Assembly: GCF_900106955.1 (NCBI RefSeq)
Contig: NZ_FNNI01000003.1
Span: forward strand, 248,001-312,000
Length of the DNA: 64,000 bases
From: Aidingimonas halophila
GTDB lineage: Bacteria; Pseudomonadota; Gammaproteobacteria; Pseudomonadales; Halomonadaceae
Direction: 5' to 3'
The notes below the pieces were generated by a model. It was not told the DNA's origin, did not search any database, and saw only the letters and a program-made list of their open reading frames with translations. Below are positions 15,616 through 43,947 of this stretch, in pieces. The position numbers and the translations under genes were made by a program. The first letter of the stretch is position 1, and each line of letters starts with the position of its first letter.

Positions 15616-15631
15616 ATGGCACATAACCTGC
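15616..15631 (+). promoter_or_regulatory. Sigma-54 (-24/-12) promoter of fibre locus 1
   Basis: TGGCAC (15617-15622) and CTGC (15628-15631) give the GG and GC dinucleotides at exactly the required spacing of the TGGCACG-N4-TTGC consensus, with C for T at one -12 base. Predicted transcription would start near 15643, leaving a leader of about 135 bases before the glycine-rich gene. The two sigma-54 activator genes in the region support the call. Confidence 0.65.
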
Positions 15632-15777
15632 CCCATACCTTTCGACCATGAAGATGGCACTGACTACCAACGGGGATCGTGTCCCGTTGGCAAGCATGGT
15701 TTCCCGACATTGTCAGGGAACTGCCGTTTTATCGGTCGTAAGAATGAATCAATCATGCATGATAAGGGAGATTCACC

Positions 15778-16920: not shown

Positions 16921-16954
16921 TGGACGTTGGTCAATGGTGGTAACGCGGTAATAC

Positions 16955-16981
16955 GGGTTGGCGGCGTTCAGTCGCCAACCC
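16955..16981 (+). terminator. Hairpin after the glycine-rich gene, possible attenuator
   Basis: GGGTTGGCG (16955-16963) pairs with CGCCAACCC (16973-16981) across a 9-base loop, with no clear U-run. It separates the presumed abundant subunit from the downstream secretion genes and could lower their expression or stabilise the upstream message. Confidence 0.5.
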
Positions 16982-17026
16982 TTGTGCGATCGGTTTTCAC
17001 GCGTCGACGTTCAGGAGCAGGTCATC

Positions 17027-17401
17027 ATGAGACGATTCAGCCGTATCTCGCTGCAATTGATAGGAAGTATCGTGCTTTCCACCCTGGTTGCGGCTTCCAT
17101 GGCAGCGGAATCCGACTCATCCCGGGGGTTTGCCGCTGCCGAGAGACTGGAGGGCGCTGAACTCGATTCCTTACGTGGAAGAGAGGGATTCGCCGACATA
17201 ACGAATGTCCAGAGCATTCAGAATCTCGATGCCTCTGTCAGTCACAGCAGCTTCCATGCCGACACCATCCGGAGCGGTGCAATCACCATCGAAGCTCAGG
17301 CATTGGAAAATTTCGGGGGAATCGGATTGTTCAATCTGGTGACCGGGAATAACAATGCCGTGAACAGTGGTGTTGGCGTCAGTATCTACATGGCCGAGTA
17401 A
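17027..17401 (+). CDS. Small secreted Fap-like protein, putative minor subunit or nucleator
   Basis: A 124-residue protein with a signal peptide ending near residue 27 (AASMAA/ES). The ATG at 17027 is chosen for AGGAG upstream and the signal peptide that follows. Residues 45-52 (ELDSLRGR) resemble a double-glycine-type leader motif also seen in other proteins of the region. The C-terminal 97-120 (FGGIGLFNLVTGNNNAVNSG) is a single Fap-type motif (G..xxN..xG..N..xN) and aligns with the end of the glycine-rich protein. It sits between that gene and the C39-like peptidase. A FapB-like nucleating role is possible but inferred. Confidence 0.65.
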   Translation: MRRFSRISLQLIGSIVLSTLVAASMAAESDSSRGFAAAERLEGAELDSLRGREGFADITNVQSIQNLDASVSHSSFHADTIRSGAITIEAQALENFGGIGLFNLVTGNNNAVNSGVGVSIYMAE

Positions 17402-17407
17402 TAGACG

Positions 17408-18115
17408 ATGAAAAGGCTGATAACCGGTGCTGCGGCATCACTGCTTGCCATCACGATGCTGGTGGAAGGAACGCCGGCACAAGCCGGTCCAGTTAATATT
17501 GCCGGTTCATTCGGTTCGTTCAAGGTGCCCAGCAAGAGTCTGGTGGAAATGCGTTGGGATCGGGTCATTCCCCAGCAATACGACTATAGCTGTGGCTCGG
17601 CCGCCGTCGCTACCCTGCTGACCTATCACTATGATCGTCCCACCTCGGAAGCCGAGGTGTTCGACAGCATGTTCGCAAGTGGCGATCAGGAGAAGATCCA
17701 GCAGCATGGATTTTCCATGCTCGACATGAAGCGGTATCTGGATGAAGAGAACCTGGATTCGGATGGATTTCGTATCGAATTGGATGATTTCATCCGGGTC
17801 GGTGTTCCTGCCATCACGCTGATCAATACCGGTGGCTATAAGCACTTTGTCGTCATTAAAGGCATGGATGACGATCGTGTTCTGGTGGGGGATCCGGCGG
17901 TAGGTACGGTTGTCGTGCCGAAAGCCCATTTCCAAACATTGTGGGGCGGTACGGTGCTGGGAGCCAGGCGAGACATGGAAATTGCGCAACATAACTTCAA
18001 TCATGGCGATGATTGGCGTATACGTCCGGATTCCCCGCTGAAGCAAGGCATGAGGCGTTCGGGGATCGGGACCACGGTCCTCAACTTGCCCGGTCCCAAT
18101 GAAATGGGCAAATAG
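17408..18115 (+). CDS. Periplasmic C39-like cysteine peptidase, FapD type (locus 1)
   Basis: A 235-residue protein with a signal peptide (cleavage near PAQA at 26) and a stand-alone C39-type peptidase domain without ABC-transporter parts. The expected catalytic residues are C62 (YSCGSAAVATLL), H146 (GYKHFVVIKG) and D162 (VGDPAVG). FapD proteins of Pseudomonas have this composition and are needed for amyloid export. It starts 6 bases after the small subunit gene. Its second copy in this window is at 24383-25099, with the same C-H-D pattern but otherwise clearly diverged. Confidence 0.85.
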   Translation: MKRLITGAAASLLAITMLVEGTPAQAGPVNIAGSFGSFKVPSKSLVEMRWDRVIPQQYDYSCGSAAVATLLTYHYDRPTSEAEVFDSMFASGDQEKIQQHGFSMLDMKRYLDEENLDSDGFRIELDDFIRVGVPAITLINTGGYKHFVVIKGMDDDRVLVGDPAVGTVVVPKAHFQTLWGGTVLGARRDMEIAQHNFNHGDDWRIRPDSPLKQGMRRSGIGTTVLNLPGPNEMGK

Positions 18116-18140
18116 GGGTCTCTATGGGAGACAAGTGACA

Positions 18141-18824
18141 ATGAACGATTCATCGAATGTCAGAAACGCAGAGATGGGTCATAAATCGAGGTCTCGCGCC
18201 CGTTTGGCTTGTTGGCCGCTGGCCGGATTGTGCCTGATCGTTTCTTCCATGACACCAGCCGGTTTCCTGGAAGAAGTGGTGGACAACGGTGACTATTATT
18301 CGCCGAGCGTGACCGCTTTCTCCGAACCCTTGGCGTTTGCGCGTCAATCGGTCATTGACGAATCGCAGCTCGAGGAGATGCGGGGAGGTTTCAGTATCGC
18401 CGGCCTGGATATCAATTTCGGTGCCACGCTGAAGACACAAATCGACAATATCCACTATGAAACGATCTTGAGCATTTCCCAGACCGGGACACGGGTCATC
18501 TCGGAAACCTTGCGTGATATGGGCTTGGCTTCCAACCAGCAGTTGACACAGGTAGGGCGCAATGGCCAGCCGCTGACGGATACACTGCCTGCCAACATCT
18601 CGCTGCCGGGGATGAAGGAGTTCAGTGGTGTCACCCTCAATGATCCGAAAGGGTTTTCTGCGGCACTGCATAGCGTGACTCGCGATGCAATCATGAGTTC
18701 GGTCGTCAGTCATGCCTCCAATCGGGACATCCGTCAGAACGTGAATCTCGATATCCAACTCAATAACGTGAAATCCATTCGGGAAGCCCAGCAGCGTTCG
18801 GTGATCATGAACTCGCTGTTCTGA
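18141..18824 (+). CDS. FapE-like secreted protein (locus 1)
   Basis: A 227-residue protein. I chose the ATG at 18141, preceded by GGGAG; a longer frame from 18099 overlaps the peptidase gene. A hydrophobic stretch at 22-40 looks like a signal peptide, although SSMTPAG is an imperfect cleavage site. Residues 76-84 (QLEEMRGGF) resemble a double-glycine leader and align with the corresponding part of the FapE-like product at 25153-25941. The C-terminal third (NVNLDIQLNNVKSIREAQQ) is helical or amphipathic and has no Fap repeat. Its position after the peptidase matches fapE. Fibre-associated or export-accessory function is inferred. Confidence 0.65.
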   Translation: MNDSSNVRNAEMGHKSRSRARLACWPLAGLCLIVSSMTPAGFLEEVVDNGDYYSPSVTAFSEPLAFARQSVIDESQLEEMRGGFSIAGLDINFGATLKTQIDNIHYETILSISQTGTRVISETLRDMGLASNQQLTQVGRNGQPLTDTLPANISLPGMKEFSGVTLNDPKGFSAALHSVTRDAIMSSVVSHASNRDIRQNVNLDIQLNNVKSIREAQQRSVIMNSLF

Positions 18825-18848
18825 ACGTCAGTGGCCACAAGCAAGAAA

Positions 18849-18872
18849 CAGGGCAAGCGGAAGCTTGCCCTG
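18849..18872. terminator. Hairpin between convergent fapE-like and fapF-like genes
   Basis: CAGGGCAAGC (18849-18858) and GCTTGCCCTG (18863-18872) form a perfect 10-bp stem with a GGAA loop. It lies in the 71-base gap between convergent genes, so it can serve both directions, although the following bases are not a strong U-run. Confidence 0.7.
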
Positions 18873-18895
18873 ATGGTTAATAGCGGGATTTACCC

Positions 18896-19969
18896 TCAAA
18901 AGACATTCATTCCAAAGGGAATCCTGAGAGTCAACAAGGTATCGGGCGCATCGTCCGTGACCCCCAATTCCAGCCCCAGATTGACCGAGGTATCCGGTGA
19001 CAGTTGATAGGACCAACCCAAGAGCAAAGACCCGATGTTCAGTGATGTGGATCGAGTACTGACACTATCCCCGTCGTCATCGGTAAAACGGGTTGTAGTC
19101 TTGTCGATGAAATCGTTCTTGTAGCCGAGCGTGAACGAGGATCGTTCGTTGATGGAATAGGCCATACCGAAACTGACACGTACGGCATCGCCTGGATCGA
19201 CTTCATCGACGAAGACATCACCGACAGACTCATCGATATCATCCTCCATGTTGTAGAGATAACCGATGTTGGCAAAATAAACGGCGGGATCGGAAGGAAA
19301 CAGCATGGTCAGGCTCGGTTCCAGGGAGTGAAAACCGGATCCCGTCGCCAATTCCTGCTCGATACCGTCACTGTCACGTCGGATATCGAAAGGGCCCTCG
19401 CCGGTCGTGGATTTGTAGCGCAGATTGCCGATGAAGTAGGGCCAGCCATCCTGCCCCCGGTTCAATTGATAGTGGGCGGCGACTTCGATATCGCCCAAGC
19501 CGTTACCGCTCAAGCCTCTGTCCGTACTGAAACCCTGGACATCGGGGACGGTGGCGTAGAGTGTGTCGTCACGGTAGACATACGGGACTTTCAGCTCCAG
19601 TTCCAGGCGATCGGTCACACCCAATCGGCCGGTTACAGCAGCCGTCCAGGTGTCGCGATCCGCATCTTCGGCCTCGAAGACACCGATCAGGAAGGTACTG
19701 AGTATCTCGACGCCACGAAAGGTGAGTCGATTGACGCTTGCATGGGAATATTGCAATTCCGGTTCAATGACCAGGCGTCCCTTGGGTGTCAGTACGCCGC
19801 CGATATCGGGAATCGCCTGGATCTCGGGTTGCTCCTGTTCAATATCGGGCGCCTGACCAACCGGTTGTTGGCCGACCGCCTCCTGATTGTTGATATCTTG
19901 AGCCGATACATGACTGGCGACAAACAGGAAAGCCAGGCCTGCTACGCGCGTTAGGGTTATTGGTATCAT
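18896..19969 (-). CDS. Outer-membrane beta-barrel, FapF-like pore (locus 1)
   Basis: A 357-residue protein with a signal peptide (cleavage near VSAQ at 23-24) and GGGAG before the ATG. A glutamine/glutamate/proline-rich linker (residues 25-50) precedes a run of amphipathic beta strands ending in an aromatic residue (RIPFGMNVF). It is clearly related to the product at 26229-27341: both contain GVT[DE]RLE.EL..P..YR and DPA..FAN.GY.YN. FapF is the trimeric pore that exports Fap subunits. The gene runs against the rest of locus 1 and lies directly downstream of a sigma-54 activator gene, so pore and subunits must use different promoters. Confidence 0.78.
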   Translation of the reverse strand: MIPITLTRVAGLAFLFVASHVSAQDINNQEAVGQQPVGQAPDIEQEQPEIQAIPDIGGVLTPKGRLVIEPELQYSHASVNRLTFRGVEILSTFLIGVFEAEDADRDTWTAAVTGRLGVTDRLELELKVPYVYRDDTLYATVPDVQGFSTDRGLSGNGLGDIEVAAHYQLNRGQDGWPYFIGNLRYKSTTGEGPFDIRRDSDGIEQELATGSGFHSLEPSLTMLFPSDPAVYFANIGYLYNMEDDIDESVGDVFVDEVDPGDAVRVSFGMAYSINERSSFTLGYKNDFIDKTTTRFTDDDGDSVSTRSTSLNIGSLLLGWSYQLSPDTSVNLGLELGVTDDAPDTLLTLRIPFGMNVF

Positions 19970-20059
19970 ATCGTTATCTCCCGGAGATCCCTCGATACTT
20001 GTTTAATGTCATCGTTTATCACCAGATGGAAGTGGGATAACCGATAACAGTCTGTTTTT

Positions 20060-21448
20060 CTAGAATATTTTCGAGCCATTCACTGGTTTTCTGCATAAAT
20101 CAACACGGTGCTTATCCAGCAACCTGTAGAGAGTGACTCGAGAAACATTCAGCTCCTTTGCCGTTGCTGATATATTACTTTTATTTCGTTCCAACGATTT
20201 TTTTATGACCTCGATTTCAGCTTGGTCCCGTACAGCATCTAGCGTCGTATTGGGAATTTCGTCGTTTATATTTTCATATGTCAGTCCTAAATCTTCAGGT
20301 TGAATGAGTTCACCTTCACACATCACCAGAGCACGACGGACTCGATTGATAAGTTCGCGGATATTTCCAGGCCAGTCATGCTGTAAAATAGAGAGTAAGG
20401 CTTCACTACTGAATCCTTTGACACATGGCGCCGCCTCTTTGGAGAAATCATTAAAAAAAGTGGTTACCAGAGTTTCAATATCGTCTTTTCTCTCTCTTAA
20501 AGGAGGTATATCAAGCTGAATGACATTGAGACGATGATAAAGATCTTCTCGGAATTTCTTGTCGTATATGGCATCCATCATATCGATGTGAGTGGCTGAA
20601 ATAATTCTGACATCGACTCTTATTTCATTGACACCACCCAGACGGCAAATTTTTTGATCTTCCAGAAAGCGGAGTAAGTTGACTTGCAGGTTATGGGGAA
20701 GGTCACCGATTTCATCGAGAAACAAGGTTCCTTCATGTGCTGACTCGATACGTCCAGGCTTACTGGTGTGTGCGTCGGTGAAGGCACCCTTTTCATGCCC
20801 GAACAGTTCGTCCTGTATCAAATCCGAAGGAAGCGAACCGCAGTTGATGGCGATGAAAGGCCCATGACGTCGCGCTGACATGTCATGGATAGTCCGTGCT
20901 ATCAGCTCCTTTCCGGTACCTGACTCGCCGAGCAGCATGATCGGGGCCTGAATCATCGCCACCTTACGTATACTGCGTACCAGGTGTTGCATTCTGGGTA
21001 CCAGACTGTTGATCAGCAGTCTGTCAGAGGGTAAGCATTTCAGTGGCAAGTCCGATGTTTGAGGGTTTTGTACATATTTTATCGTGGCAGCATGCCTGAG
21101 TAGTATATGCAACTTATCAGATGAACCTGGCAATAAATGATATGCATAGAACAGTGATCTTATCGCCAATCGATTTATCTTTTTATCAAGATACTCTTGA
21201 TTGGCTAATGCAATCCATTCGATATGGCTTTTATCAATCAGTGTTTCAAGAAAAGGATGAAATGATGGACGAAGTGATGTTAAATCAACGATGCCAATAT
21301 CAAATTTATCAGGTTGAATGTTTTCAGAAGCTGGCACTAAATGACGGTGATGTATTACATCAAATGTATTCAGGATATTTTTACTCATTACAAGCCGATT
21401 CGACTCTGCGCTATCGCCAATATAAAGAAGCCTCTTCAATGCATACAT
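20060..21448 (-). CDS. VpsR-like sigma-54 activator with GAFTDA variant (locus 1)
   Basis: A 462-residue transcription factor. The N-terminal domain (1-140) is receiver-like without an obvious phospho-acceptor pocket and carries LFYAYHLLPGS, shared with the second activator and reminiscent of VpsR. The AAA+ domain has Walker A GESGTGKE (174-181) and Walker [10 protein letters not shown]. The sigma-54 contact loop reads GAFTDA (221-226) instead of GAFTGA. A Fis-type helix-turn-helix closes the protein ([20 protein letters not shown]). The gene is noticeably AT-richer than its surroundings, suggesting transfer. Direct control of locus 1 is inferred from position and from the sigma-54 promoter at 15616. 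Confidence 0.85.
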   Translation of the reverse strand: MYALKRLLYIGDSAESNRLVMSKNILNTFDVIHHRHLVPASENIQPDKFDIGIVDLTSLRPSFHPFLETLIDKSHIEWIALANQEYLDKKINRLAIRSLFYAYHLLPGSSDKLHILLRHAATIKYVQNPQTSDLPLKCLPSDRLLINSLVPRMQHLVRSIRKVAMIQAPIMLLGESGTGKELIARTIHDMSARRHGPFIAINCGSLPSDLIQDELFGHEKGAFTDAHTSKPGRIESAHEGTLFLDEIGDLPHNLQVNLLRFLEDQKICRLGGVNEIRVDVRIISATHIDMMDAIYDKKFREDLYHRLNVIQLDIPPLRERKDDIETLVTTFFNDFSKEAAPCVKGFSSEALLSILQHDWPGNIRELINRVRRALVMCEGELIQPEDLGLTYENINDEIPNTTLDAVRDQAEIEVIKKSLERNKSNISATAKELNVSRVTLYRLLDKHRVDLCRKPVNGSKIF

Positions 21449-22005: not shown

Positions 22006-22022
22006 TTGGCACAGAGATTGCT
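22006..22022 (+). promoter_or_regulatory. Sigma-54 (-24/-12) promoter of the fap operon (locus 2)
   Basis: TTGGCAC-AGAGA-TTGCT matches the consensus YTGGCACGrNNNTTGCW with one exception (A for G after TGGCAC), and the GG/GC spacing is exact. Transcription would begin about 22033. This excludes the upstream GTG at 22032 and supports the ATG at 22056 as the first start of the operon. Confidence 0.88.
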
Positions 22023-22055: not shown

Positions 22056-22562
22056 ATGAACGGCGTGACATACTCCACATCGGTTTTACCACCCAGGCCA
22101 ATCGCAACGCGCTGCCGGTATGTCGCGACGGTATTGATCCTGGCGTGTGGACCGGCTGTCAGCTGGGCAGGGGAGCTGCAGGGAGATAACGACACCATAG
22201 CCGTTGCCTATACCACGGTCTCTCATCAGTCATCGTCATATAGCAATAACGACCACCATGGTTTGGCCGATCGTGTCGCTTTCGATAGTGGCAATGACTT
22301 CGGGGGTAACAGCGGGGAAGAACGCTTGCCTGACACATTCAGGTCGCTGGAGATGAATACAAGCATTGATAGCGGCACCTTGAGCCAGGTTCGCGGCCGT
22401 TACACCCCATCTTCCGAACTCGAAAGTGGCTCGGCTGACGGTGTCATTCTCTGGGATGAAGGTCATACCGGACAACAGGGTGGATCGAGCAAGGGGTCCA
22501 ATCACTCCATGGGTCAGGGAAATATCCAGAAAAACTCCATTACGACCCAGAGTCAAAGGTGA
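22056..22562 (+). CDS. fapA: FapA-like secreted protein (locus 2)
   Basis: A 168-residue protein, first gene of the operon. The ATG at 22056 follows GAGGA and lies downstream of the predicted transcription start. A signal peptide ends near SWAG (residue 39). The mature part is Ser/Gly/Asn-rich and low in hydrophobics, with TLSQVRGRY at 108-116 and a C-terminal GQGNIQKNSITTQ that is part of a Fap motif. The identification as FapA rests on position (first of six), size and secretion signal more than on similarity I can see. Confidence 0.6.
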   Translation: MNGVTYSTSVLPPRPIATRCRYVATVLILACGPAVSWAGELQGDNDTIAVAYTTVSHQSSSYSNNDHHGLADRVAFDSGNDFGGNSGEERLPDTFRSLEMNTSIDSGTLSQVRGRYTPSSELESGSADGVILWDEGHTGQQGGSSKGSNHSMGQGNIQKNSITTQSQR

Positions 22563-22567
22563 ACGTC

Positions 22568-23245
22568 ATGGCCGGAAACACGAGCTTTGATCGCGAAACA
22601 TCGAAAAAAACTGGCCGTTTGCGGAGCATGTTACTGGCGATGTCACCGCTGGTGTTCATGACGTTCGTGATGAATGAAGCCGTTGGGGACGACGGGGTTT
22701 TCAGGCATCTACCTCAGGCGAACAGCAGTGTCATCAGTGGTGATGCGTTGAGCGGTGTGCGGGGCGTAGTCGCCACCAATAGCGCAGCGGGAACCAACAA
22801 TCTTCAGAGTAATTCGGGTGCGATTGCCATCGGTGATACCGCTTCCGTGAATAACCATGTCATTCAGCAATCCACACTGGACAAAGGCTCCGTTCCTGGC
22901 CGAGACAACGTCTCGATCGAGGGTCGAGCATTCAGCCACGCCAAAGGCTGGATTTCGACCAACCAGGCGGCGGGGCGAGCGAATGTGCAGGGCAATGCAG
23001 TCAGCATGGCTCTGGGCATCAAGGGCAGTGCACTGAGCGAGAGCAGTATGGGTCAGGTGCTGTCCGATCAGCAGGGACTGACGGCCGATCTGGCTAGTTC
23101 CGATGCCTCGAAGCGCAAGGTCACGATCGACAAGACGGCCTTCTCGGGGGCAGCAGGAATTATCCAGACGAACCAGTCAGCCGGAAACGGCAATACCACC
23201 AGTAACAGCTTCAGTCTCCGTGTGGGGCCTGGGGGCGGTGAGTAG
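22568..23245 (+). CDS. fapB: Fap-repeat protein, FapB-like (locus 2)
   Basis: A 225-residue protein with three Fap-type repeats at about 60-89, 121-150 and 191-220, for example GWISTNQAAGRANVQGNAVS and GIIQTNQSAGNGNTTSNSFS. The ATG at 22568 follows AAAGGTGA and lies just after the fapA stop, so translation is probably coupled. A hydrophobic segment at 21-37 acts as signal; about 20 polar residues precede it, which is longer than usual. In Pseudomonas FapB is the minor, nucleating amyloid subunit. The end is PGGGE. Confidence 0.75.
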   Translation: MAGNTSFDRETSKKTGRLRSMLLAMSPLVFMTFVMNEAVGDDGVFRHLPQANSSVISGDALSGVRGVVATNSAAGTNNLQSNSGAIAIGDTASVNNHVIQQSTLDKGSVPGRDNVSIEGRAFSHAKGWISTNQAAGRANVQGNAVSMALGIKGSALSESSMGQVLSDQQGLTADLASSDASKRKVTIDKTAFSGAAGIIQTNQSAGNGNTTSNSFSLRVGPGGGE

Positions 23246-23294
23246 TCTGCCGGAATAAACAACGTTGAACCAAGGTTCATTCAGGAGAAAGATC

Positions 23295-24305
23295 ATGAAA
23301 ACATTGACGAAAACTCCGCTGGCACTGGCTATCGCTACCTTGATGATGGCTCCCTATGCGATGGCGGATGAGTATACCGGTGGTTTCGATACCGATAGCG
23401 AGATCGACTCTGAGTTCGAAAATGAAGTCGAAGTCGAAATCGAGCATGATGCCGAGACCAATAAGGATATCAAGGTCTGGGGCGGCGCCCTGATACTGGA
23501 TCCCAACTATGCGGGTGCCACGGTCGATAGCAAGCAATTGTCGGAAGACAATTTCGTGCTCAACGATCTGGTGGAAAACGATGCGCGAGTAGGCGGTGAT
23601 GCCGGTCGAAATGCCAGTGGCAATATCGGCATCAACAGTGCGGCCGGCGATAACAACCAACAGGCCAATGATGCGGCCTTGGCGGCATCCGACGCGAATA
23701 CGGTCTTCGCACAGTCGGCCGCATTCTCGGTACAGTCCTCTGACGACAACACGGTGGTCAACAAGGGCACCGATAACGATGCCGGCGCAGGTGGCAATGC
23801 GCTGCGCGGCGCCACAGGCAATATCGGTCTCAATAGTGCGGCCGGTGTCGGTAATGCCCAGCAGAACAGCCTGTCGGCGTCCGTCAATACCAGCAATGGA
23901 TCAGCCGATGCCACCTCGGCCGGCGTGCAATCGAACAGCGATAATGCCAGCTTCAATGGAACTGGGAAGACCAAGACAACAAAAACGTCCCAGGTTAATG
24001 GTGTAGCTGCGGTTTCGGGGGCATCTGCCGGTGCTGAAGCAGGCGCTAGCGCAGGCACTTACTACAAACACGCTAGTGCAGGTGCCGGTGCGGAAGCCAG
24101 CGCCGGTGCGCTTGCGGCTGCCTACTCCGGCAGTGAAACCGTGACGACGACCAAGAACCAGATGCAGACCAATGACGCCAACCTGAGCGGTAATGCACTC
24201 CGCGATGCGTCAGGCAATCTCGGGGTGAACGTTGCTGCGGGTAACAACAATCAGCAGCGTAACTCGCTCTCCATTGCCGCAGGGACGGGTGGTGGATCTG
24301 AGTAA
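23295..24305 (+). CDS. fapC: Major Fap amyloid subunit, FapC-like (locus 2)
   Basis: A 336-residue protein starting at the ATG at 23295 (AGGAGA upstream), with a signal peptide cleaved near AMA/DE at 24. Three Fap repeats at about 104-132, 167-195 and 299-327 share GN[IL]G[IL]N.AAG..N.QQ, as in Pseudomonas FapC. The second linker (about 200-295) includes an Ala/Gly/Ser-rich stretch with imperfect GASAGAEAG-type copies. The N-terminal mature part is highly acidic (residues 32-55). There is no cysteine. A strong hairpin follows the gene, consistent with the subunit being made in excess. Identification rests on repeats, operon order and the FapD/FapF partners. Confidence 0.85.
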   Translation: MKTLTKTPLALAIATLMMAPYAMADEYTGGFDTDSEIDSEFENEVEVEIEHDAETNKDIKVWGGALILDPNYAGATVDSKQLSEDNFVLNDLVENDARVGGDAGRNASGNIGINSAAGDNNQQANDAALAASDANTVFAQSAAFSVQSSDDNTVVNKGTDNDAGAGGNALRGATGNIGLNSAAGVGNAQQNSLSASVNTSNGSADATSAGVQSNSDNASFNGTGKTKTTKTSQVNGVAAVSGASAGAEAGASAGTYYKHASAGAGAEASAGALAAAYSGSETVTTTKNQMQTNDANLSGNALRDASGNLGVNVAAGNNNQQRNSLSIAAGTGGGSE

Positions 24306-24326
24306 CCACGGCTAGTCAGTGATGTG

Positions 24327-24352
24327 AACCGGCCCCGGATGGGGCCGGTTTT
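24327..24352 (+). terminator. Terminator-like hairpin between fapC and fapD
   Basis: AACCGGCCCC (24327-24336) pairs perfectly with GGGGCCGGTT (24341-24350) around GGAT, followed by TT. It looks like a partial terminator that would lower fapDEF relative to fapABC. It corresponds in position to the hairpin after the glycine-rich gene of locus 1. Confidence 0.75.
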
Positions 24353-24382
24353 CCACTCCAACGAGCCTGTGGGAGAGCACTG

Positions 24383-25099
24383 ATGTTTCCTTCGATAATG
24401 ACTCGCATGTTGTCTGTTCTGGTTGGCGCTGGCTGCCTGCTGGCAGCGGGAATATCCGATGTCCAGGCGGCCAACGTGCGTCTGGGCAATGTGGTATCGG
24501 GTACCGTGATCAACAAGGATGTGCAGTCGATGCGTGAGCGGAAGTTCGACACCCTGGTGGAACAGGAAACGGATTTTTCCTGCGGTGCCGCCTCGTTGGC
24601 AACGTTGCTGCGCTATGCCTACAACCAGCCGGAGATCACGGAAGAGGACGTGCTCGAAGGCATGCTCGAGGTCGCCGATCCTGACGTGGTGATGGAGCGC
24701 GGCTTTTCCCTGCTCGACCTCAAGAATTATGTCGATCGCCTGGGGTATCGCGGTCGAGGTTATGAAGTCGACACCGAGACACTGGACGAGGTGGCGATTC
24801 CCGTCATCGTGCTGCTCGATATCGATGGCTACAAGCACTTCGTTGTCATGAAAAAGGCCAGTGATGATCGGGTCTATGTCGGTGATCCAGCGTTGGGTAA
24901 CCGGGTCATGGAGCGGGATGAATTTCTCGCCGCCTGGAACAACATCATCTTCGCCGTGGTAGGCGAAGGGTTCGATACGCAAACCCCATTACTCGATCCC
25001 GATCAACCGCTGACAGCGCGGCGGCTGACCGATGTGTTTGCACCGGTACCCGAACAGGATCTTCTCGATTTCGGATTTCGCCATGCTGACTTCTTCTGA
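24383..25099 (+). CDS. fapD: Periplasmic C39-like cysteine peptidase FapD (locus 2)
   Basis: A 238-residue protein with a signal peptide (DVQA/AN near 30) and a single C39-type domain. Catalytic residues are C67 (DFSCGAASLATLL), H152 (GYKHFVVMKK) and D168 (VGDPALG). GGGAGAG precedes the ATG. It lacks the ABC parts of bacteriocin exporters and agrees with FapD. It shares FSLLDLKNYVDRLGYRG / FSMLDMKRYLDEEN and other blocks with the locus 1 copy. Confidence 0.87.
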   Translation: MFPSIMTRMLSVLVGAGCLLAAGISDVQAANVRLGNVVSGTVINKDVQSMRERKFDTLVEQETDFSCGAASLATLLRYAYNQPEITEEDVLEGMLEVADPDVVMERGFSLLDLKNYVDRLGYRGRGYEVDTETLDEVAIPVIVLLDIDGYKHFVVMKKASDDRVYVGDPALGNRVMERDEFLAAWNNIIFAVVGEGFDTQTPLLDPDQPLTARRLTDVFAPVPEQDLLDFGFRHADFF

Positions 25100-25152
25100 G
25101 CGAGATGCCTACGGATAACGGCATCAGCAAGGGCGCATTCAAGGGGGTAAAT

Positions 25153-25941
25153 ATGATCAGGCACTGGGTGGATAAACGTTGGTACGGTGCACTGGGAGTC
25201 GTCGTTGTATTAGGGGGCATTGGACAGCCAACAGAAGGACGGGCCGCGACGACCGATGTATCGGCGTTGGCCGATTCCCGTCAACTCAGCGATGACGAAT
25301 TGGCCGGTATGCGCGGCCGTTTCATCGATGGCAAAAGTGTCATGTTCTTCGGCGTCAGTATGGAGAGTGAATTTCGCACCGCTGGCGGTGATAGTCTGAA
25401 AGCGGGCGCCAATCTCCATGCCGATATGATCAAAGGCAAAGCCAGTTTCAAACCGCATATTACAGCCACGTCCATCGATAGCGACAAGATGCGGTCGAAA
25501 GGGAATGATAATGCGAATCTGAGCTATAACGACCTCGGTAGTGGCAATGCGCGTGGGGTCGTACAAACCATACAGGCGGCTGGTGATGGCAACGCTGCTG
25601 CCAACGAATTCGAACTCGATATCCAGACATTTGCGAATGCGTCGCGTGGCGCACGGGTTTCCGGCAATGGTGAAACGTCCTTGAATACCGGTACGGCCAA
25701 TCTGAGCGTTCGACAGAATGGACGCGGTATGGAAGTCGGTATCGACGTGCCGGGCCAGGGCCGAATCAAGCAGCAGCTCCGATCGGGGCAGGGGTTGCAT
25801 CAGTCGGTGCAACTCAACAGCGATCTGCAGCGGGTGCGAAACGTGACACGGCTACAGGTCGGGGTGAAACAGGCACTGGGTGACGCGTCAGGTTCCCAGC
25901 TCAAGCGTGCACTGGATTCGGCACGTGGCCTGCGGCGTTAA
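25153..25941 (+). CDS. fapE: FapE-like secreted protein (locus 2)
   Basis: A 262-residue protein. The ATG at 25153, preceded by AAGGGGGT, is preferred to a frame from 25105 that has no signal before it. A signal peptide ends around residue 31. Residues 46-57 (SDDELAGMRGRF) form a double-glycine-like motif closely matching that of the locus 1 paralogue. One Fap-type motif lies at 133-153 (RGVVQTIQAAGDGNAAAN). The C-terminal part is rich in Gln, Arg and hydrophobic heptad-like positions. FapE of Pseudomonas is exported and found with the fibre. Confidence 0.72.
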   Translation: MIRHWVDKRWYGALGVVVVLGGIGQPTEGRAATTDVSALADSRQLSDDELAGMRGRFIDGKSVMFFGVSMESEFRTAGGDSLKAGANLHADMIKGKASFKPHITATSIDSDKMRSKGNDNANLSYNDLGSGNARGVVQTIQAAGDGNAAANEFELDIQTFANASRGARVSGNGETSLNTGTANLSVRQNGRGMEVGIDVPGQGRIKQQLRSGQGLHQSVQLNSDLQRVRNVTRLQVGVKQALGDASGSQLKRALDSARGLRR

Positions 25942-26147
25942 CCGGACCGGCAATGGTTTCGCAATCAGGTCGCTATCTATTTCAGGGTGGTTGTCTCCGT
26001 AGGATACGCGAGATGGTCACCCTTTCTGCATTGTTGATGTTCCGTGATATTGACGTCAACGCGCCGAGATTTCCGTCGACTACACTGCCTAGTGCATCAG
26101 ATGTTCATGAACAACAAAACGGTAATGCAGTGATCGGGAACGTGTCG

Positions 26148-26168
26148 GAATCCTGCTCGACAGGATTC
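26148..26168 (+). other. Hairpin in the fapE-fapF gap
   Basis: GAATCCTG (26148-26155) and CAGGATTC (26161-26168) form a perfect 8-bp stem with a 5-base loop and no U-run. The 287-base gap (25942-26228) that contains it otherwise holds an 86-codon frame (25953-26213) with no recognisable feature, so a separate promoter for fapF is possible but not identified. Confidence 0.45.
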
Positions 26169-26228
26169 AGTCGCAGCCCATCGAATACCATCAAAAACCC
26201 AGGGAATCGATAGTCAGGGGAGTGGATA

Positions 26229-27341
26229 ATGCGAATGACCAAGGTTGCCGATCCTCAACTGAGTCTCAAGCCGTATATCACCGCTGTCACTTTGTGTGTG
26301 GGTAGTGTGTGGGCCACATCGGCCTGGGCTCAAGAGGATGTGTCGCCGGGGGGCGATGGAGACGGGGAGGTTGTCAGGGAGGCCGGCCCCACGCAAAGCG
26401 TCCAGAATGTGCTCCGCGAGGAACATGCGCTGTTCTCGGATCGACTGACGATCGAACCCGGGATCAGTTATGCCTATTCGGATCGTAGCCAGTTGGCTCT
26501 GAGTGGTTTCCTGGCGCTGGATGCCATCTTTCTCGGTGAAATCAATGTCGATACCGTCTCGAGCCATATCACCACGTTCGATCTCAACTTTCGTTACGGG
26601 GTGACGGAGCGTCTGGAATTCGAACTCAATTTCCCGTTCCTGTATCGCAGCAGTACCTATGAGAGCACCGGAGGGGGAGGTGCGGCCGAAGATGACCCCA
26701 ATGTCGAGGATTCCGTGAGCGAGGCCGGATTGGGGGATATCAGTGCCTCACTCAATTACCGATTGTTGAATGAAACCGCGCAACGCCCCGATCTGGTCTG
26801 GAATGTTGGTGTCCGTGCGCCGACAGGCAACGATCCCTTCGGTATCCCGACACGTCGAGTGGAAGGCAGTGAAGGTAATGTGGAGATTCCGACCGAACTG
26901 CCGACGGGTAACGGCGTCTGGGCCGTTTCCACGGGGTTCTCGGTGCTCAAGACGGTCGATCCCGCCATTCTCTTCGCCAATGCCGGCTACACCTACAATT
27001 TCGAGGAGAGCTTCGGCGATATCGATGCCGCGGAAGGCAATCAGCCAGGAGATGTCAAGCTGGGCGACTCCTTCAATCTGGGATTCGGTACGGCATTTGC
27101 CTTGAATGAACGCTTGAGCTTGTCGATGTCCTACGCGCACCAGCACAGTTTCAAATCCGAGACGACCCAGAACGGGGTTACCGAAGAGGTCGTGGGCAGT
27201 GATGCCAATGTAGGGACCATGAATTTCGGCGCTACCTATGCGCTGAGTGACGATACGTCGCTGGTTACCAACGTGGCGGTTGGTCTGACCGACGATGCCT
27301 CGGATCTCACGGTCTCGTTCCGGATGCCGTTCCAGTTCTAG
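26229..27341 (+). CDS. fapF: Outer-membrane beta-barrel FapF (locus 2)
   Basis: A 370-residue protein with a signal peptide ending at SAWAQ (about residue 35) and GGGGAG before the ATG (an in-frame ATG two codons later is an alternative). A short glycine/acid-rich N-terminal linker is followed by repeated amphipathic beta strands and a terminal phenylalanine (FRMPFQF), as expected for an outer-membrane barrel. It shares long blocks with the locus 1 barrel. FapF forms the trimeric export pore for Fap subunits. The long N-terminal coiled coil described for Pseudomonas FapF is not evident here. Confidence 0.8.
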   Translation: MRMTKVADPQLSLKPYITAVTLCVGSVWATSAWAQEDVSPGGDGDGEVVREAGPTQSVQNVLREEHALFSDRLTIEPGISYAYSDRSQLALSGFLALDAIFLGEINVDTVSSHITTFDLNFRYGVTERLEFELNFPFLYRSSTYESTGGGGAAEDDPNVEDSVSEAGLGDISASLNYRLLNETAQRPDLVWNVGVRAPTGNDPFGIPTRRVEGSEGNVEIPTELPTGNGVWAVSTGFSVLKTVDPAILFANAGYTYNFEESFGDIDAAEGNQPGDVKLGDSFNLGFGTAFALNERLSLSMSYAHQHSFKSETTQNGVTEEVVGSDANVGTMNFGATYALSDDTSLVTNVAVGLTDDASDLTVSFRMPFQF

Positions 27342-27360
27342 GCAGTGAACTCAACTCACT

Positions 27361-27383
27361 GAGCCGCTGGCTGGCAGCGGCTC
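27361..27383. terminator. Terminator hairpin between fapF and the convergent activator gene
   Basis: GAGCCGCTG (27361-27369) and CAGCGGCTC (27375-27383) make a perfect 9-bp stem with a GCTGG loop. It lies 20 bases after fapF and 4 bases beyond the stop of the convergent gene. Confidence 0.75.
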
Positions 27384-27387
27384 GATC

Positions 27388-28749
27388 TCAATGATGCAAC
27401 TCGGCGGATTCGGGGCGGACGATGTCATGTTTATCGATCAATCGATAGAGTGTCACCCGTGACACGCCGAGTTCCTTGGCGGCATTCTGGATCTTGTACT
27501 TGTTGCGGGCCAGGGCGGCCACCAGGGCATCGCGTTCGGCTGCGTCACGGGCTTGTTCCAGTGTCAATACTTCACGGCTGTTGTGTCGCCGTTCGAGTCC
27601 CATGTCAGCGGGACGAATGAGGCGTCGTTCGCACATCACCATGGCGCGGCGGACCCGGTTGATCAGTTCCCGTATGTTGCCTGGCCAGTCATATTGCCGC
27701 ATCAAGGCCAGCGTTTCCTGGCTGAATCCCCGCAATTGAGCCGGTTTCTCATTGGCGAATTTGTCGAAGAAGAAACGCGCCAGCACCTCGATGTCTTCCT
27801 GCCGTTCGCGAAGCGGCGGCACATTGATCTGCAGGACATTGAGGCGGTGATAGAGATCTTCTCGAAAGCGCCCTTCACGCACGGCAGCCTCAAGATCAAT
27901 GTGTGTCGCAGCCAGGACTCGCACATCAACGTTGATCTCCTTGAGTCCCCCGACACGCTGAATCTGGTGATCCTGGAGAAAGCGCAGGAGATTGACCTGC
28001 ATATCCAGTGGCAAGTCACCGATCTCGTCGAGGAACAGGGTACCGCCGGATGCGGCTTCGATACGGCCAATCTTGCGTTGTGTCGCACCGGTGAAGGCGC
28101 CCTTCTCATGGCCGAACAATTCCGACTGAATCAGACTGGCCGGTAGGGCGCCGCAGTTGACGGCCACGAATGGTCCTTCGGCCCGTGTCGATCGCTCGTG
28201 GACAGCATGTGCAGCCAGTTCCTTACCCGTGCCGGATTCACCACTGATGAAGACCGGTGCATCGACGGCTGCTACACGACGAATCATGTTGAACAGCTTA
28301 TGCATTTCCGGGGTGGTGCCCACCATTTCGTACTCGCTGGATCCCAACTGACAGTCCCGACCGGGAAGTGGCGCCAATCTGGCCATGGCCAGGGCATGGG
28401 TCAACAGACAATCGATCTCTGCGACATCGATCGGTAAGGTGTGGTAGGCGTAGAACAGTTGGCTCAGGATGCGGCAGCTGACGTGATCGTCGAGTGCTGC
28501 ATTGTCGACCAGGGCGACCCACTCCATGGGATGGGACATGACCAGCTTTTCGGCCGCTTTCTGGTGATGCTTGTCAACATCGACATACATCAGACCGACA
28601 TCGCAAGGGTGCGAATGAATCAACTCATCGGCGTGAAACGTGTCGGGCGCGCATTGGATGGACCATCCGCGCTGGGCCATATCCGCGATGACTGGCGGCG
28701 TGTGATGATGATCGGCACCGACAAACAGCAAACGCTTGGTGACTTCCAT
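27388..28749 (-). CDS. VpsR-like sigma-54-dependent activator (locus 2)
   Basis: A 453-residue regulator homologous to the product at 20060-21448. The N-terminal receiver-like domain carries [11 protein letters not shown] (99-107). Walker A is GESGTGKE (170-177), the sigma-54 loop is the canonical GAFTGA (217-222), and the Fis-type helix-turn-helix is [19 protein letters not shown]. VpsR of Vibrio, a matrix-gene activator responding to c-di-GMP, is the nearest relative I can name; ligand binding here is not shown. The gene is downstream of, and on the same strand as, the csgD-like gene (60-base gap). It probably activates the promoter at 22006. Confidence 0.88.
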
Positions 28750-28809
28750 AGTGACTCTCGTTCCCGGCGTTGTTCTTTATAATCCCCTGGACGCTTTTTC
28801 CATCGTGAT

Positions 28810-29511
28810 TCAATGGCGTAACGAGGAGCGATGCGGGTTGTCTTCGGTTCTCATACTGGCCAGGTTGATCGGCATGGCACCCAGGTTTTGCCGCGCCCAG
28901 TTCATGGCCTGGATACGGTTATGCACCTTGATCTTGCGAAAGACGTTATAGAGATGCGACTTTACCGTGTGCTCGCTGACGAAGAGCCGTTCGGCGATCT
29001 CCGAGTTCGAGGCGCCTGATCCTAGAAGACCAATGATCTCGAGTTCACGGTGCGTCAACCCACAGATGGGGCGGTAGGCATTGCGTTGCTGACGCCGATA
29101 GAAATCGATCAGGCGGGTCATCAATGCGCGTGATATCCACAGGTCGCCTTCCAGAAGTTTGCGGATGCCCTTGCAGATCAGCATCAGGCTGTCACTGCGA
29201 TAGAAGACGCCCTGAAGGTGGAACTTGGCCAGTACATCAGCGGCGTGGTCCTCATCACGCAGGTTGAAGGCCGCCAGTAATATGTCGGACCCTTCCAACG
29301 TCTGGTAGTACCATTGTTGAAGTGTTTCGTCATCGACGTGGTCGGCATCCATCAGTATCAGCGTGGTCTCATTTGCTTGCAGGCTACAGCTCTCGGTGAG
29401 TCCCTTGACGGCAACGGGGCACTGCAGTTGTTGATGGATATAATCGATGAACAATTGTGATTGTGGGTTCGTATCGGTGACTAGAAGCACCGATCCCTTG
29501 GCTTGATCCAT
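28810..29511 (-). CDS. CsgD-like LuxR-family biofilm regulator
   Basis: A 233-residue regulator with a receiver-like N-terminal domain lacking a clear phosphorylation pocket and a LuxR helix-turn-helix at about 150-212. The match to E. coli CsgD is strong in two blocks: QGVFYRSDS near 100, and LTHRELEIIGLLGSGASNSE with SEHTVKSHLYNVF. CsgD normally activates curli and cellulose genes. No csgA/csgB homologue is in this window, and the gene instead neighbours a Fap-type operon. GGAGCAGGG precedes the ATG. Activation of the downstream sigma-54 activator or of either fibre locus is inferred. Confidence 0.88.
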   Translation of the reverse strand: MDQAKGSVLLVTDTNPQSQLFIDYIHQQLQCPVAVKGLTESCSLQANETTLILMDADHVDDETLQQWYYQTLEGSDILLAAFNLRDEDHAADVLAKFHLQGVFYRSDSLMLICKGIRKLLEGDLWISRALMTRLIDFYRRQQRNAYRPICGLTHRELEIIGLLGSGASNSEIAERLFVSEHTVKSHLYNVFRKIKVHNRIQAMNWARQNLGAMPINLASMRTEDNPHRSSLRH

Positions 29512-29902
29512 GACCCTGCTCCTTTCTTATGGGAAGCGCGATGCGTTGACAGTATGACGATATTAAGGAGGACCCTCTTCCTAACTGTAATCCAAACACC
29601 ATGAATGTAAAGTTAAGTTACTGTAAAAAAGAATGATTTTAATAGTATTAGGTTAATCTAAACATAGGCAATAAAGTTTTTTATTTAAAATCAATCAGTT
29701 ATTTATATAATTTGATGAATTTATAAAATACTAAAGCAAGCTAACGAAAGTATTCTAACTTTAATTTTTGTAACACTGTTTTCTTAGTCAATGAGTATGA
29801 AATAATTAATACTTGCCTTAACTTGTTGTAAAAGTTCGGGATGTGTAAGAGGAAATTCCCACTTCCCTATTGGATACGTAGAATGGAGGTAACACGGCGA
29901 GG
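29512..29902. promoter_or_regulatory. AT-rich intergenic region in front of the csgD-like gene
   Basis: This 390-base gap separates the csgD-like gene (minus) and rdgB (plus). About 29570-29840 is far AT-richer than the surroundings. It contains a perfect IHF consensus AATCAATCAGTTA (29689-29701) inside the 15-mer shared with the fap promoter, and a TGTAACA heptamer (29769-29775). E. coli csgD also has a long, AT-rich, IHF-responsive regulatory region. No -35/-10 pair was confidently chosen. Confidence 0.55.
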
Positions 29903-30511
29903 ATGAATGACATGTCTGCTATACATACGCTGGTGCTGGCCAGTGGTAATGAAGGAAAGCTTAGAGAATTCAATGAATTGCTATCACCCGTAGGCATTGA
30001 GGTGCGAGCTCAGAAAGATTTTTCGGTGCCTGAGGTGGAAGAGACGGGCGTCACCTTCGTTGAGAATGCCTTGCTCAAGGCCCGTGAAGCGAGCAGAGTC
30101 AGTGGGTTGCCGGCACTCGCCGACGATTCCGGTCTGGAAGTGGATGCATTGAACGGGGCGCCAGGGATCTACTCGGCCCGTTATGCCGGGGAACCACCCG
30201 ATGACGGAGCCAATAATGACAAATTGTTGTCTGCCATGGCCGGGATCCCCGAGGGGCAGCGAAGCGGGCGTTACTGGTGTGTATTGGTCTATTTGCGTCA
30301 TGCAGACGATCCCGTGCCCGTCATTGTCCAGCGGTGCTGGGAAGGAGAAATACTTGCGCATCCCCGTGGCGAGGGAGGCTTTGGCTACGATCCGTTGTTC
30401 TGGGTGACCGACATGGGCATGAGCGCTGCCGAACTCTCCGGGGAAGAGAAGAACCGCTTGAGCCATCGCGGTCGGGCGATGCAGGCCCTGGTCGACCAGT
30501 GGCATTATTGA
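29903..30511 (+). CDS. rdgB: dITP/XTP pyrophosphatase RdgB
   Basis: A house-cleaning enzyme hydrolysing ITP, dITP and XTP. About 202 residues; the start may be 29903 or the ATG at 29912 (MSAIHTLVLASGNEGKLREF). Ham1-family motifs are LVLASGNEGKLREF, ALADDSGLEVDALNGAPGIY and GFGYDPLFW...SHRGRAMQAL. Its TGA overlaps the ATG of hemW by one base. Confidence 0.96.
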   Translation: MNDMSAIHTLVLASGNEGKLREFNELLSPVGIEVRAQKDFSVPEVEETGVTFVENALLKAREASRVSGLPALADDSGLEVDALNGAPGIYSARYAGEPPDDGANNDKLLSAMAGIPEGQRSGRYWCVLVYLRHADDPVPVIVQRCWEGEILAHPRGEGGFGYDPLFWVTDMGMSAAELSGEEKNRLSHRGRAMQALVDQWHY

Positions 30512-37600: not shown

Positions 37601-37654
37601 CTCAGGACGATACAATGTCCGGTCTTCATTGGCCCATGAATGGATGAGGTGGCG

Positions 37655-39151
37655 GTGTCTGTCGCTCTTTGGCAACAGTGTCTTGAGTACCTGCAGGATG
37701 AATTGAGTTCACAGCAGTTCAATACGTGGATTCGTCCGTTGCAAGCAGAGGAAGGTGAATCCAACGAATTGCGCCTGCTGGCGCCCAATCGCTTTGTGCG
37801 TGACTGGGTCAGTGACAAGTATGCCAAGCGTATCAATGAATTGATACGTGAACTGTCCCCTTCCAAGCCTCCCAAGGTGTCATTGACTGTAGGCAGTCGC
37901 CGGGCGGGACCCGCCCCTCAGCCACGGCAATTGGGGAATCCGGTATCCGCCGATGCGTACAGTAATAGACCGGCGGCCCCGGCCGTGCAGGTTCCGCCTC
38001 GTGGGGATCTGCCCGATGAGGGAGAAATCGGTGACGCCGGGGCCGGTGAAAGCGAAGTTTCCCAACAGGCGGAATCAAACACCAGAGCCGGCGGCGAGCG
38101 CCAGGTGCAGGTGGAGGGAAGTCTCAAGCACCAGAGTGGACTCAATCCCAATTTCACTTTCGAAACGTTTGTGGAAGGTAAGTCCAACCAACTGGCCAGA
38201 GCCGCTTCACGTCAGGTGTCCGAAAACCCGGGTGGGGCTTACAATCCCCTGTTTCTTTATGGCGGTGTCGGGTTGGGTAAAACGCACTTGATGCATGCCG
38301 TCGGGAATCAATTAGCGATGAAAAGCGACAATGCCAAGGTGGTTTATCTGCATTCGGAACGCTTCGTCGCTGATATGGTCAAGGCACTCCAGCTGAACGC
38401 CATCAATGATTTCAAGCGTTTTTACCGTAGCGTCGATGCGCTGTTGATCGATGATATTCAGTTCTTTGCCGGTAAGGAGCGCTCGCAGGAGGAGTTCTTC
38501 CACACTTTCAATGCCCTGTTGGAAGGTGGACAGCAAATGATCTTGACTTCTGATCGCTATCCCAAGGAAATCAATGGAGTAGAAGAACGTCTGAAGTCCC
38601 GTTTTGGATGGGGTCTGACCGTTGCCATAGAGCCGCCTGAACTTGAAACGCGTGTAGCGATCCTGATGAAAAAGGCGGATCAGGCCAAGGTGGATCTGCC
38701 TCATGATGCTGCGTTTTTCATTGCACAGAAAATACGCTCCAATGTTCGTGAGCTGGAAGGGGCCCTGAAAAAGGTGATTGCCGACTCCCATTTCATGGGA
38801 CGACCGATCACTCAGGATTTTATTCGTGAGTCACTCAAGGATTTGCTCGCGCTCCAGGATAAGCAGGTGGGCGTGGACAATATCCAACGCACCGTCGCCG
38901 AATATTACAAGATCAAGCTAGCGGATCTGTTGTCCAAACGTCGTTCACGTTCCGTGGCCAGGCCACGACAGGTTGCCATGGCGTTGGCGAAGGAATTGAC
39001 CAATCACAGTCTGCCGGAAATCGGGGATGCCTTCGGAGGACGCGACCATACGACGGTTCTCCATGCTTGCCGTAAGGTCCAGTCGTTGCAGGAAGACAAT
39101 GCCGATATCCGTGAGGATTACAAGAATCTGTTGCGATTGCTGACCAGCTGA
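37655..39151 (+). CDS. dnaA: Chromosomal replication initiator DnaA
   Basis: The initiator ATPase, about 498 residues. I prefer the GTG at 37655 ([20 protein letters not shown]) because homologues begin there and ATGAGG precedes it; an in-frame ATG at 37640 lacks a ribosome-binding site. Domain I, a variable linker (about 85-165), the AAA+ domain with [16 protein letters not shown], and the C-terminal box-binding domain ending in [15 protein letters not shown] are all present. Confidence 0.97.
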
Positions 39152-39205
39152 TGGCAGTAGTGCGATGCATATATACCGAAATTCAGGACAAGAAGTGGAG
39201 TCTCC

Positions 39206-40309
39206 ATGAAATTTTCCATCTCCCGCGAAGCCTTGTTGCGCCCCTTGACGCTGGTGGCTGGTGTGGTGGAGCGGCGCCAGACCTTGCCAGTACTGTCCAA
39301 TGTGCTGTTGCAGGTCCAGGATGACCAGTTGGCATTGACCGGCACGGATCTAGAGGTTGAGTTGATTGGTCGTGTGGCTCCCGATCAGGTGGATGAGCCG
39401 GGGTCGGCGACGGTGCCGGCACGCAAGTTGATGGACATTTGCAAATCATTGCCGGAACAGTCGGAGATCAATTTTGCAATAGAGGAAGGTCGCGCGGTCT
39501 TGCGCAGTGGGCGGTCACGCTTCACGCTCTCGACCTTGCCCGTCGCAGAATTCCCCAATATCGAGGATGGGCCTGGCAATATTGAGCTCAGCCTGCCTCG
39601 GGGAACGCTCAAGCATCTTATCGATGCCACCTCGTTTGCCATGGCACAACAGGATGTTCGTTATTATCTAAATGGCATGTTGCTGGAGTTGAATTCCAAC
39701 CTCGTGCGAACGGTCGCGACGGATGGCCACCGGTTGGCAGTGTGTTCTCGCCCAGCGGACATCGATGTGGATCCACCCCAGAAGCTGATCGTCCCTCGAA
39801 AGGGGATACTCGAATTGACACGTTTGCTCGGTGACAGTGATGAGCCCGTCAATTTGACCGTTGGAGCGAGTCATGTGCGAGCCCATACGGGGGAATTCAC
39901 GTTCACCTCGAAGCTGGTCGACGGTAAATTCCCTGATTATGAGCGCGTTGTTCCTCGTGGAGGTGACAAGGTATTGATTGCCGAGCGTGCCGAATTGCGT
40001 CAGGTATTGTCACGGACTTCGATTCTTTCCAATGAAAAATACCGTGGTGTTCGTTTGCAGCTAGAGGAGGGCAACCTTCGGGTCACTGCCAATAACCCCG
40101 AGCAGGAAGAAGCCGAAGAAAACGTGGCCATCGAATATAGTGGGGATGGGATGGAGATTGGTTTCAATGTCAGCTATCTGATCGATGTGTTGACCGTCCT
40201 GAATGAGGACCGAGTGCAGCTGACACTCTCGGATCCTAACAGCAGTGCACTGATGGAAGAGCCTGGTGGTGGTGATGCGATGTATGTCGTCATGCCAATG
40301 CGGCTCTAG
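39206..40309 (+). CDS. dnaN: DNA polymerase III beta sliding clamp DnaN
   Basis: The ring-shaped processivity clamp, 367 residues, normal length. It begins MKFSISREALLRPLTLVAGV and ends in the clamp-typical YVVMPMRL. It lies 54 bases after dnaA in the conserved dnaA-dnaN-recF-gyrB order. Confidence 0.98.
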   Translation: MKFSISREALLRPLTLVAGVVERRQTLPVLSNVLLQVQDDQLALTGTDLEVELIGRVAPDQVDEPGSATVPARKLMDICKSLPEQSEINFAIEEGRAVLRSGRSRFTLSTLPVAEFPNIEDGPGNIELSLPRGTLKHLIDATSFAMAQQDVRYYLNGMLLELNSNLVRTVATDGHRLAVCSRPADIDVDPPQKLIVPRKGILELTRLLGDSDEPVNLTVGASHVRAHTGEFTFTSKLVDGKFPDYERVVPRGGDKVLIAERAELRQVLSRTSILSNEKYRGVRLQLEEGNLRVTANNPEQEEAEENVAIEYSGDGMEIGFNVSYLIDVLTVLNEDRVQLTLSDPNSSALMEEPGGGDAMYVVMPMRL

Positions 40310-40407
40310 TGATCCCTTCCATGCTTTGTATGTTGTCGGCATTGACATCTTCATTGTTCATTTGACCCTTTATGGCGGCGTCTCTCAGGCGCCGTAGGAT
40401 CCTGCGA

Positions 40408-41523: not shown

Positions 41524-43947
<2,424 letters not shown>

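Follow-up and report, generated by a model that had tools for sequence, protein, structure and literature searches.

Curli and Fap fibres are unrelated amyloid systems that are thought to be separately controlled. In Oceanospirillales, csgD is the first gene of csgD-csgEFG (Dueholm 2012, PMC3521004). In Pseudomonas fluorescens PF07, brfA lies in reverse orientation just downstream of fapA-F, with a -24/-12 promoter before fapA (PMC9207406, PMC13101488); fap expression in P. fluorescens is lost without rpoN or brfA (PMC9207406), and statements in PMC13101488 describe BrfA as a c-di-GMP-sensing activator. VpsR and VpsT of V. cholerae make up one c-di-GMP circuit (PMC12456836). According to Dueholm 2013, a CsgD equivalent is not part of fap operons (PMC3684753), and the portion available of a 2025 GTDB-wide survey of curli and Fap, which deals with composition and repeats, mentions no regulator at fap. 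Our literature search, with subscription papers mostly outside it, turned up neither a CsgD/VpsT-like regulator linked to fap nor an exchange between curli and Fap.

The DNA analysed here is a 64-kb stretch of the Aidingimonas halophila genome (the window), in which an earlier note had described a CsgD-like gene abutting a VpsR-like sigma-54 activator and a Fap operon. All three were found, together with a second, divergent Fap/Fil-like cluster that the note had not described:

15617-15632, plus strand: sigma-54 promoter-like site TGGCACATAACCTGCC, before the gene for the Gly-rich protein
15778-16920, plus strand: Gly-rich, secreted-looking protein of 380 aa, presumed fibre subunit, matching no family
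16958-17401, plus strand: small protein of the second cluster, matching no family
17408-18115, plus strand: FapD/FilB-like C39 peptidase of the second cluster, by profile match
18099-18824, plus strand: protein in the FapE position of the second cluster, assigned by position only, with no model match
18896-19969, minus strand: FapF1, a divergent FapF-like/FilC-like channel (NF058560, E 1.7e-43)
20060-21448, minus strand: EBP1, second VpsR/BrfA-type activator, 462 aa, with the loop GAFTDA
22007-22022, plus strand: sigma-54 (-24/-12) promoter-like site TGGCACAGAGATTGCT, before fapA
22056-22562, plus strand: protein in the FapA position, assigned by position only, with no model match
22559-23245, plus strand: FapB-like protein (NF058557, E 3.6e-27, below cut-off)
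23265-24305, plus strand: FapC-like protein (NF058558, E 1.6e-44, below cut-off)
24383-25099, plus strand: FapD-like C39 peptidase (NF058616, E 6e-85, 284 of 330 bits)
25105-25941, plus strand: FapE-like protein (NF058559, E 2.9e-29, below cut-off)
26229-27341, plus strand: FapF-like outer-membrane channel (NF058560, E 1.8e-109, below cut-off)
27388-28749, minus strand: EBP2, VpsR/BrfA-type sigma-54 activator, 453 aa, with a GAFTGA loop and a Walker motif
28810-29511, minus strand: CSGD, CsgD/VpsT-family LuxR regulator, 233 aa, pseudo-receiver plus GerE HTH
29512-29902, no strand: AT-rich intergenic region of 391 bp from CSGD to rdgB, presumed promoter region of a CSGD-EBP2 operon
29903-30511, plus strand: rdgB, the neighbour across that region

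The open reading frame of CSGD spans exactly the interval given for it and lies on the minus strand, which the note had not stated; EBP2 follows 60 bp downstream on the same strand, the two genes probably forming one operon. Scanning 27300-30000 for sigma-70 promoters was uninformative, with 5 sites where 2.3 were expected. EBP2, which matches the VpsR domain PF20161 with 51.1 bits (cut-off 23.7), is convergent with the fapA-F operon (about 22056-27341), in which fapA likely starts at the ATG at 22056 rather than the GTG at 22032. FapB, FapC, FapD, FapE and FapF follow one another in that order, all with scores below the equivalog cut-offs of their models, and FapA is assigned by its position. 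The window also holds dnaA, dnaN, recF and gyrB (37640-43947), some 8 kb away from the regulator, while its other end has gidA/parA-type genes, from which we conclude that the site lies near the replication origin.

The second cluster, with its own activator, covers 15778-21448. EBP1 lies 90 bp ahead of FapF1 on the same strand, so placing this channel gene on the strand of the activator and apart from the subunit genes. The peptidase and the channel match FilB and FilC of the Acinetobacter Fil system almost as well as FapD and FapF; the cluster differs from Fil in its Gly-rich, subunit-like protein that no model recognizes and in its linkage to a CsgD/VpsT-like regulator. Clusters of this type are common to many Halomonadaceae. 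The loop GAFTDA in place of GAFTGA also occurs in eight other loci (L038, L053, L057, L086, L126, L144, L147 and L162), and the sigma-54-like sites before the second cluster are still kept in most of these relatives.

The arrangement of activator, fapA-F and promoter in the window is that of the BrfA-RpoN system of P. fluorescens PF07: a reverse gene downstream of fapF encodes a sigma-54 activator with the GAFTGA contact loop, a -24/-12 site precedes fapA, and RpoN is encoded in the genome. It differs from that system in that P. fluorescens has no CsgD equivalent at fap, and in that the activators of the family form a clade of their own (42 rows), apart from the fapF-side activators of one outside family (f3) in a tree that did not include BrfA itself. 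Contrary to the earlier reading as worded, a sigma-54 activator beside fap is no novelty, BrfA having been published and such activators also standing at fapF outside the family in 10/26 FapF genomes of a class sample and 6/8 of an order sample. Where the locus has an activator, 23/27 fap operons have an upstream sigma-54 score of at least 20.5 out of 23.5, against a background of 2/608 other upstream regions and 3/540 shuffled sequences; at a looser cut (at least 18) background sites are common (e.g. 46/106 for hemL). Only two strict sites occur in the window, each before a fap cluster, against 2.03 expected by chance, their position alone being informative. Given these promoters and the BrfA-like arrangement, the activator is likely to be the direct switch of fap, and since it appears to share an operon with the regulator, the latter would act above it.

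The regulator itself belongs with CsgD and VpsT. Its top NCBIfam model is CsgD (NF007505, E 1e-44), with 152.7 bits, below the equivalog cut-off of 250, and in Pfam it matches both VpsT-like_REC (PF21155, 40.9 bits, cut-off 27) and the GerE/LuxR HTH (PF00196, 67.6 bits, cut-off 23.5), the domain pair of the VpsT/CsgD receiver family. Among proteins of solved structure, V. cholerae VpsT is the nearest in sequence (E 5e-32). An AlphaFold model (mean pLDDT 84, 31 aligned rows) resembles VpsT across its whole length, superposes on the CsgD receiver (5xp0) with a Z of 16.7 and 2.4 A over 134 residues, and predicts a long helix after the receiver (residues 128-146). Identity to E. coli CsgD is 33% over 206 aa, and a tree of the regulators, with its long branches, does not resolve how the family rows relate to E. 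coli CsgD and to VpsT.

The ligand motif falls on the VpsT side. VpsT-type c-di-GMP receptors have the consensus W[F/L/M][T/S]R, and the W125-I-S-R128 (WISR) of CSGD, which aligns with VpsT W131-R134 and has both of these residues, falls outside that consensus by the Ile at its second position. W-x-[ST]-R is kept in 154/154 family rows, with the W and the R invariant. The corresponding positions are YFTQ in E. coli CsgD, which does not have the VpsT motif, and WLPP, VVSE and YLPP in three NarL-type paralogues from the same genome. The equivalent of VpsT I141 is kept in CSGD (I in 126/154 family rows, L in 27), as is that of H193 (H in 153/154). In VpsT, R134A abolishes c-di-GMP binding, and I141E and H193A, affecting a dimer residue and a DNA-binding residue, also have effects (PMC3359988). 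On these residues the Halomonadaceae regulator is predicted to bind c-di-GMP, and the view of it as curli-type does not extend to its ligand motif. The likeness to E. coli CsgD lies in the protein family and in the many Halomonadaceae orthologues that head csgD-csgEFG; the differences are the motif, the Fap neighbour and a genome without curli. VpsT shares the pocket W and R, I141, H193 and a partner activator with a VpsR domain, and differs in regulating polysaccharide, whereas the regulator in the window adjoins an amyloid cluster. A further difference is that the partner activator has retained GAFTGA and is set opposite sigma-54 promoters.

No csg gene is present in the 64-kb window, as the earlier note had said, and neither CsgG (PF03783) nor the curlin repeat (PF07012) has a match in the genome as a whole (3.89 Mb, 100% complete), E. 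coli controls being positive in both searches. CSGD is thus linked to Fap and not to curli, and curli cannot be its target; the suggestion that curli genes elsewhere in the genome are its only targets is rejected. Cellulose was considered as another target and discarded, BcsB being found in 17/151 genomes of the family and absent from this one.

Linkage was surveyed in a sample of 151 genomes of the family. The regulator is present in at least 124 of these (E 1e-25), FapF in 42 and some CsgG-family match in 69. At least 150 places of the regulator are listed and the list is incomplete, so that all linkage counts are lower bounds; one FapF fragment of 70 positions (G005) was removed, and curli CsgG was taken as the best 47 CsgG rows, down to a split gene (G136), to the exclusion of weaker CsgG-family rows. 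FapF lies within 12 kb of the regulator in at least 32/50 places and at least 27/42 genomes, so the linkage that the note had proposed to look for across Halomonadaceae recurs. Likewise, csgG lies within 6 kb of the regulator in at least 39/47 counted places. The gaps are operon-like on both sides of this comparison, with medians of 50 bp between regulator and activator (26 cases) and 18 bp between regulator and csgE (37 cases). Fap does not need the regulator, as 18/50 FapF places are more than 12 kb from any regulator, and four FapF genomes have none, among the matches listed. Outside the family the regulator was found in 0/26 FapF genomes of the class sample (E 1e-22) and 0/8 of the order sample (E 1e-15), absences that rest on genome searches rather than on neighbourhoods since the flanks there extend only about 1.5 kb; 30 order-sample genomes have a regulator match and no FapF.

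The genes around the regulator follow one layout across 130 neighbourhoods, repeated in 80 named loci: rdgB, the regulator pointing away from it, a slot of variable content, and hemL facing the slot. The gene rdgB is upstream of the regulator in 124/154 rows. After exclusion of 15 loci (no rdgB nearby, an unclassifiable slot or a regulator that is not full-length), 115 slots remain, of which 56 are empty, 32 hold curli, 24 hold Fap, 2 hold both fibres and 1 holds PNAG genes. The PNAG slot (L049, attributed to Litchfieldella xinjiangensis) has pga genes behind two regulator copies, with PgaA, PgaB and glycosyltransferase domains. In two loci of Billgrantia, L086 and L147, both fibres stand side by side and each has a copy of the regulator to itself. 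The loci called empty often keep a kinase-like gene of the hemL neighbourhood and, in some genera, an additional copy of the regulator accompanied by carbonic-anhydrase-like and SulP-like genes (by eye). In L040, L042, L050, L059 and L064 (three genera), a divergent second copy is found about 3.4 kb off, with carbonic-anhydrase-like and SulP-type transporter genes, named by eye, between the two copies. Three curli loci (L137, L150 and L164) have a fap-type activator upstream of the regulator and no fap genes in the neighbourhood covered, the activator possibly being a relic of an earlier Fap cassette.

Fibre content changes more often than descent of the regulator would require. The 154 regulator rows are labelled as curli (40), fap (28) or none (86). 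Under the separate classification of the 115 loci, the tree of the site rows requires the cassette to have changed at least 15 times, where 4 changes would suffice, and placing all fap rows or all curli rows in one clade is rejected (AU p 1e-33 and 5e-29, respectively; 61 rows from six genera, on a quick tree and with groups chosen after the tree was seen). Regulators of the rdgB site cluster by genus, the fap-linked ones of L080 and L149 falling among curli-linked rows from their own genus, at 94-95% protein identity. The comparison of L080 with the curli locus L111 locates the exchange: the DNA outside is 90.5% and 91.5% identical over 8.6 and 4.3 kb, the alignment breaks off exactly at the stop codon of the regulator and, at the far end, about 430 bp beyond hemL, and between the breaks lie fapBCDEF in L080 and csgEFG-BA in L111. 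Between L125 and L101, a 6.66-kb Fap cassette corresponds to 64 bp. As expected of a resident gene, distances between regulators are correlated with rdgB distances (Mantel r 0.56) and with hemL distances (Mantel r 0.61), both p values being at the floor of 999 permutations; the two flanking genes agree more closely with each other.

It therefore seems fairly probable that this very probably c-di-GMP-sensing CsgD/VpsT-family regulator is a resident Halomonadaceae gene beside rdgB, behind which matrix cassettes have been exchanged: curli, one or two kinds of Fap, PNAG, or nothing, the slot in the window holding two Fap-type clusters. Of the suggestion that a curli-type and a Vibrio-type regulator had been joined to a third kind of fibre, the linkage to Fap holds; a simple joining does not, the regulator being a resident gene that stands beside curli, Fap or nothing. 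It appears to stay at its fixed site while the fibre genes beside it are swapped or absent, and thus to be re-used for different fibres.

The position of CSGD suggests that it controls fap. c-di-GMP bound in the W-x-S-R pocket, whose residues are invariant in the family, would activate the regulator. Co-transcription across the 60-bp same-strand gap would let the regulator set the supply of the sigma-54 activator, perhaps through an effect on the regulator's own promoter, and this activator, of the c-di-GMP class of VpsR and BrfA, would in turn switch on the fap operons at the -24/-12 sites seen before them, as the work on BrfA suggests. More tentatively, the site may serve as a regulatory dock, where whole matrix systems (curli, Fap, PNAG) are exchanged behind a fixed c-di-GMP-sensing gene that is itself a homology arm, so that a new fibre would come at once under the old signal, either by operon fusion (to csgEFG, the activator or fapF1) or by rewired promoters (the two loci without an activator).

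A doubtful but serious alternative makes the regulator an old c-di-GMP regulator of general function in the family, with its targets elsewhere, near which cassettes merely insert, fap being run only by the BrfA-type activator. The 56 loci with no adjoining fibre all keep the regulator intact (W-x-[ST]-R in 56/56), and 43 of them are in genomes with neither FapF nor a counted csgG anywhere, so it must have other targets; the unlinked FapF places listed and the sigma-54 sites for the activator at fap promoters are also in its favour. A scan for a shared regulator box points the same way. Gibbs sampling of 30 diverse csgB upstream regions of the family yielded a box resembling CTGATRGCG, with an information of 11.4 (8.3-8.9 for eight shuffled sets), present in 29/38 csgB upstream regions, a partly circular count. 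In several genera this candidate curli regulator site precedes csgB by about 45-110 bp (e.g. L132, L143 and L090). It was found in 0/7 fapA, 0/21 Gly-rich and 0/2 activator-less fapB upstream regions and in 1/40 of those of csgE, and is absent upstream of CSGD in the window. Its frequency upstream of fap operons, of regulators and of activators is that of chance, which leaves no basis for claiming a shared regulator box, and the scan lends no support to a direct role of the CsgD/VpsT-like protein at fap promoters. At E. coli csgB the box scores 9.4 at TTTTTGATAGCGGA, against a 95% shuffle level of 9.2, which we leave uninterpreted. Against a general regulator stand the operon-like gaps to the activator or csgE, the separate cassettes in Billgrantia with a regulator copy each, and L080 and L149, where fap is kept next to the regulator in a locus that has neither an activator nor a sigma-54 site (best score 17).

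That the regulator instead travels with each cassette as part of the fibre operon, every swap bringing its own CsgD, we regard as improbable. Genomes with two cassettes do have two regulator copies (L086, L147, L164), the curli loci L117, L140 and L048, away from rdgB, carry a divergent copy, and a crossover inside the regulator gene could also produce the break at the stop codon in L080. At the rdgB site such co-travel is already disfavoured by the grouping by genus, by the place of L080 and L149 among curli-linked relatives and by the correlation with the flanking genes; for the extra copies it is possible. That CSGD is an ordinary response regulator of the NarL type, served by a kinase of its own and standing in this neighbourhood by accident, is hardly credible. 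The phosphorylatable-looking Asp55, invariant in the family rows, speaks for it; against it, the nearest folds and sequences are VpsT and CsgD, the motif is unlike that of the three paralogues, no kinase gene adjoins CSGD in the window gene list, and the linkage to fapF recurs in at least 27 genomes.

The resident regulator with exchanged cassettes is thus a new combination of known parts, a regulator family and an activator-fap pair, with a fixed site and exchangeable fibres. Near relatives that differ almost only in the fibre behind the same regulator are natural experiments, and such pairs make it directly testable how a second-messenger regulator comes to control a new output and whether the exchange of biofilm matrix genes is anchored on regulator genes.
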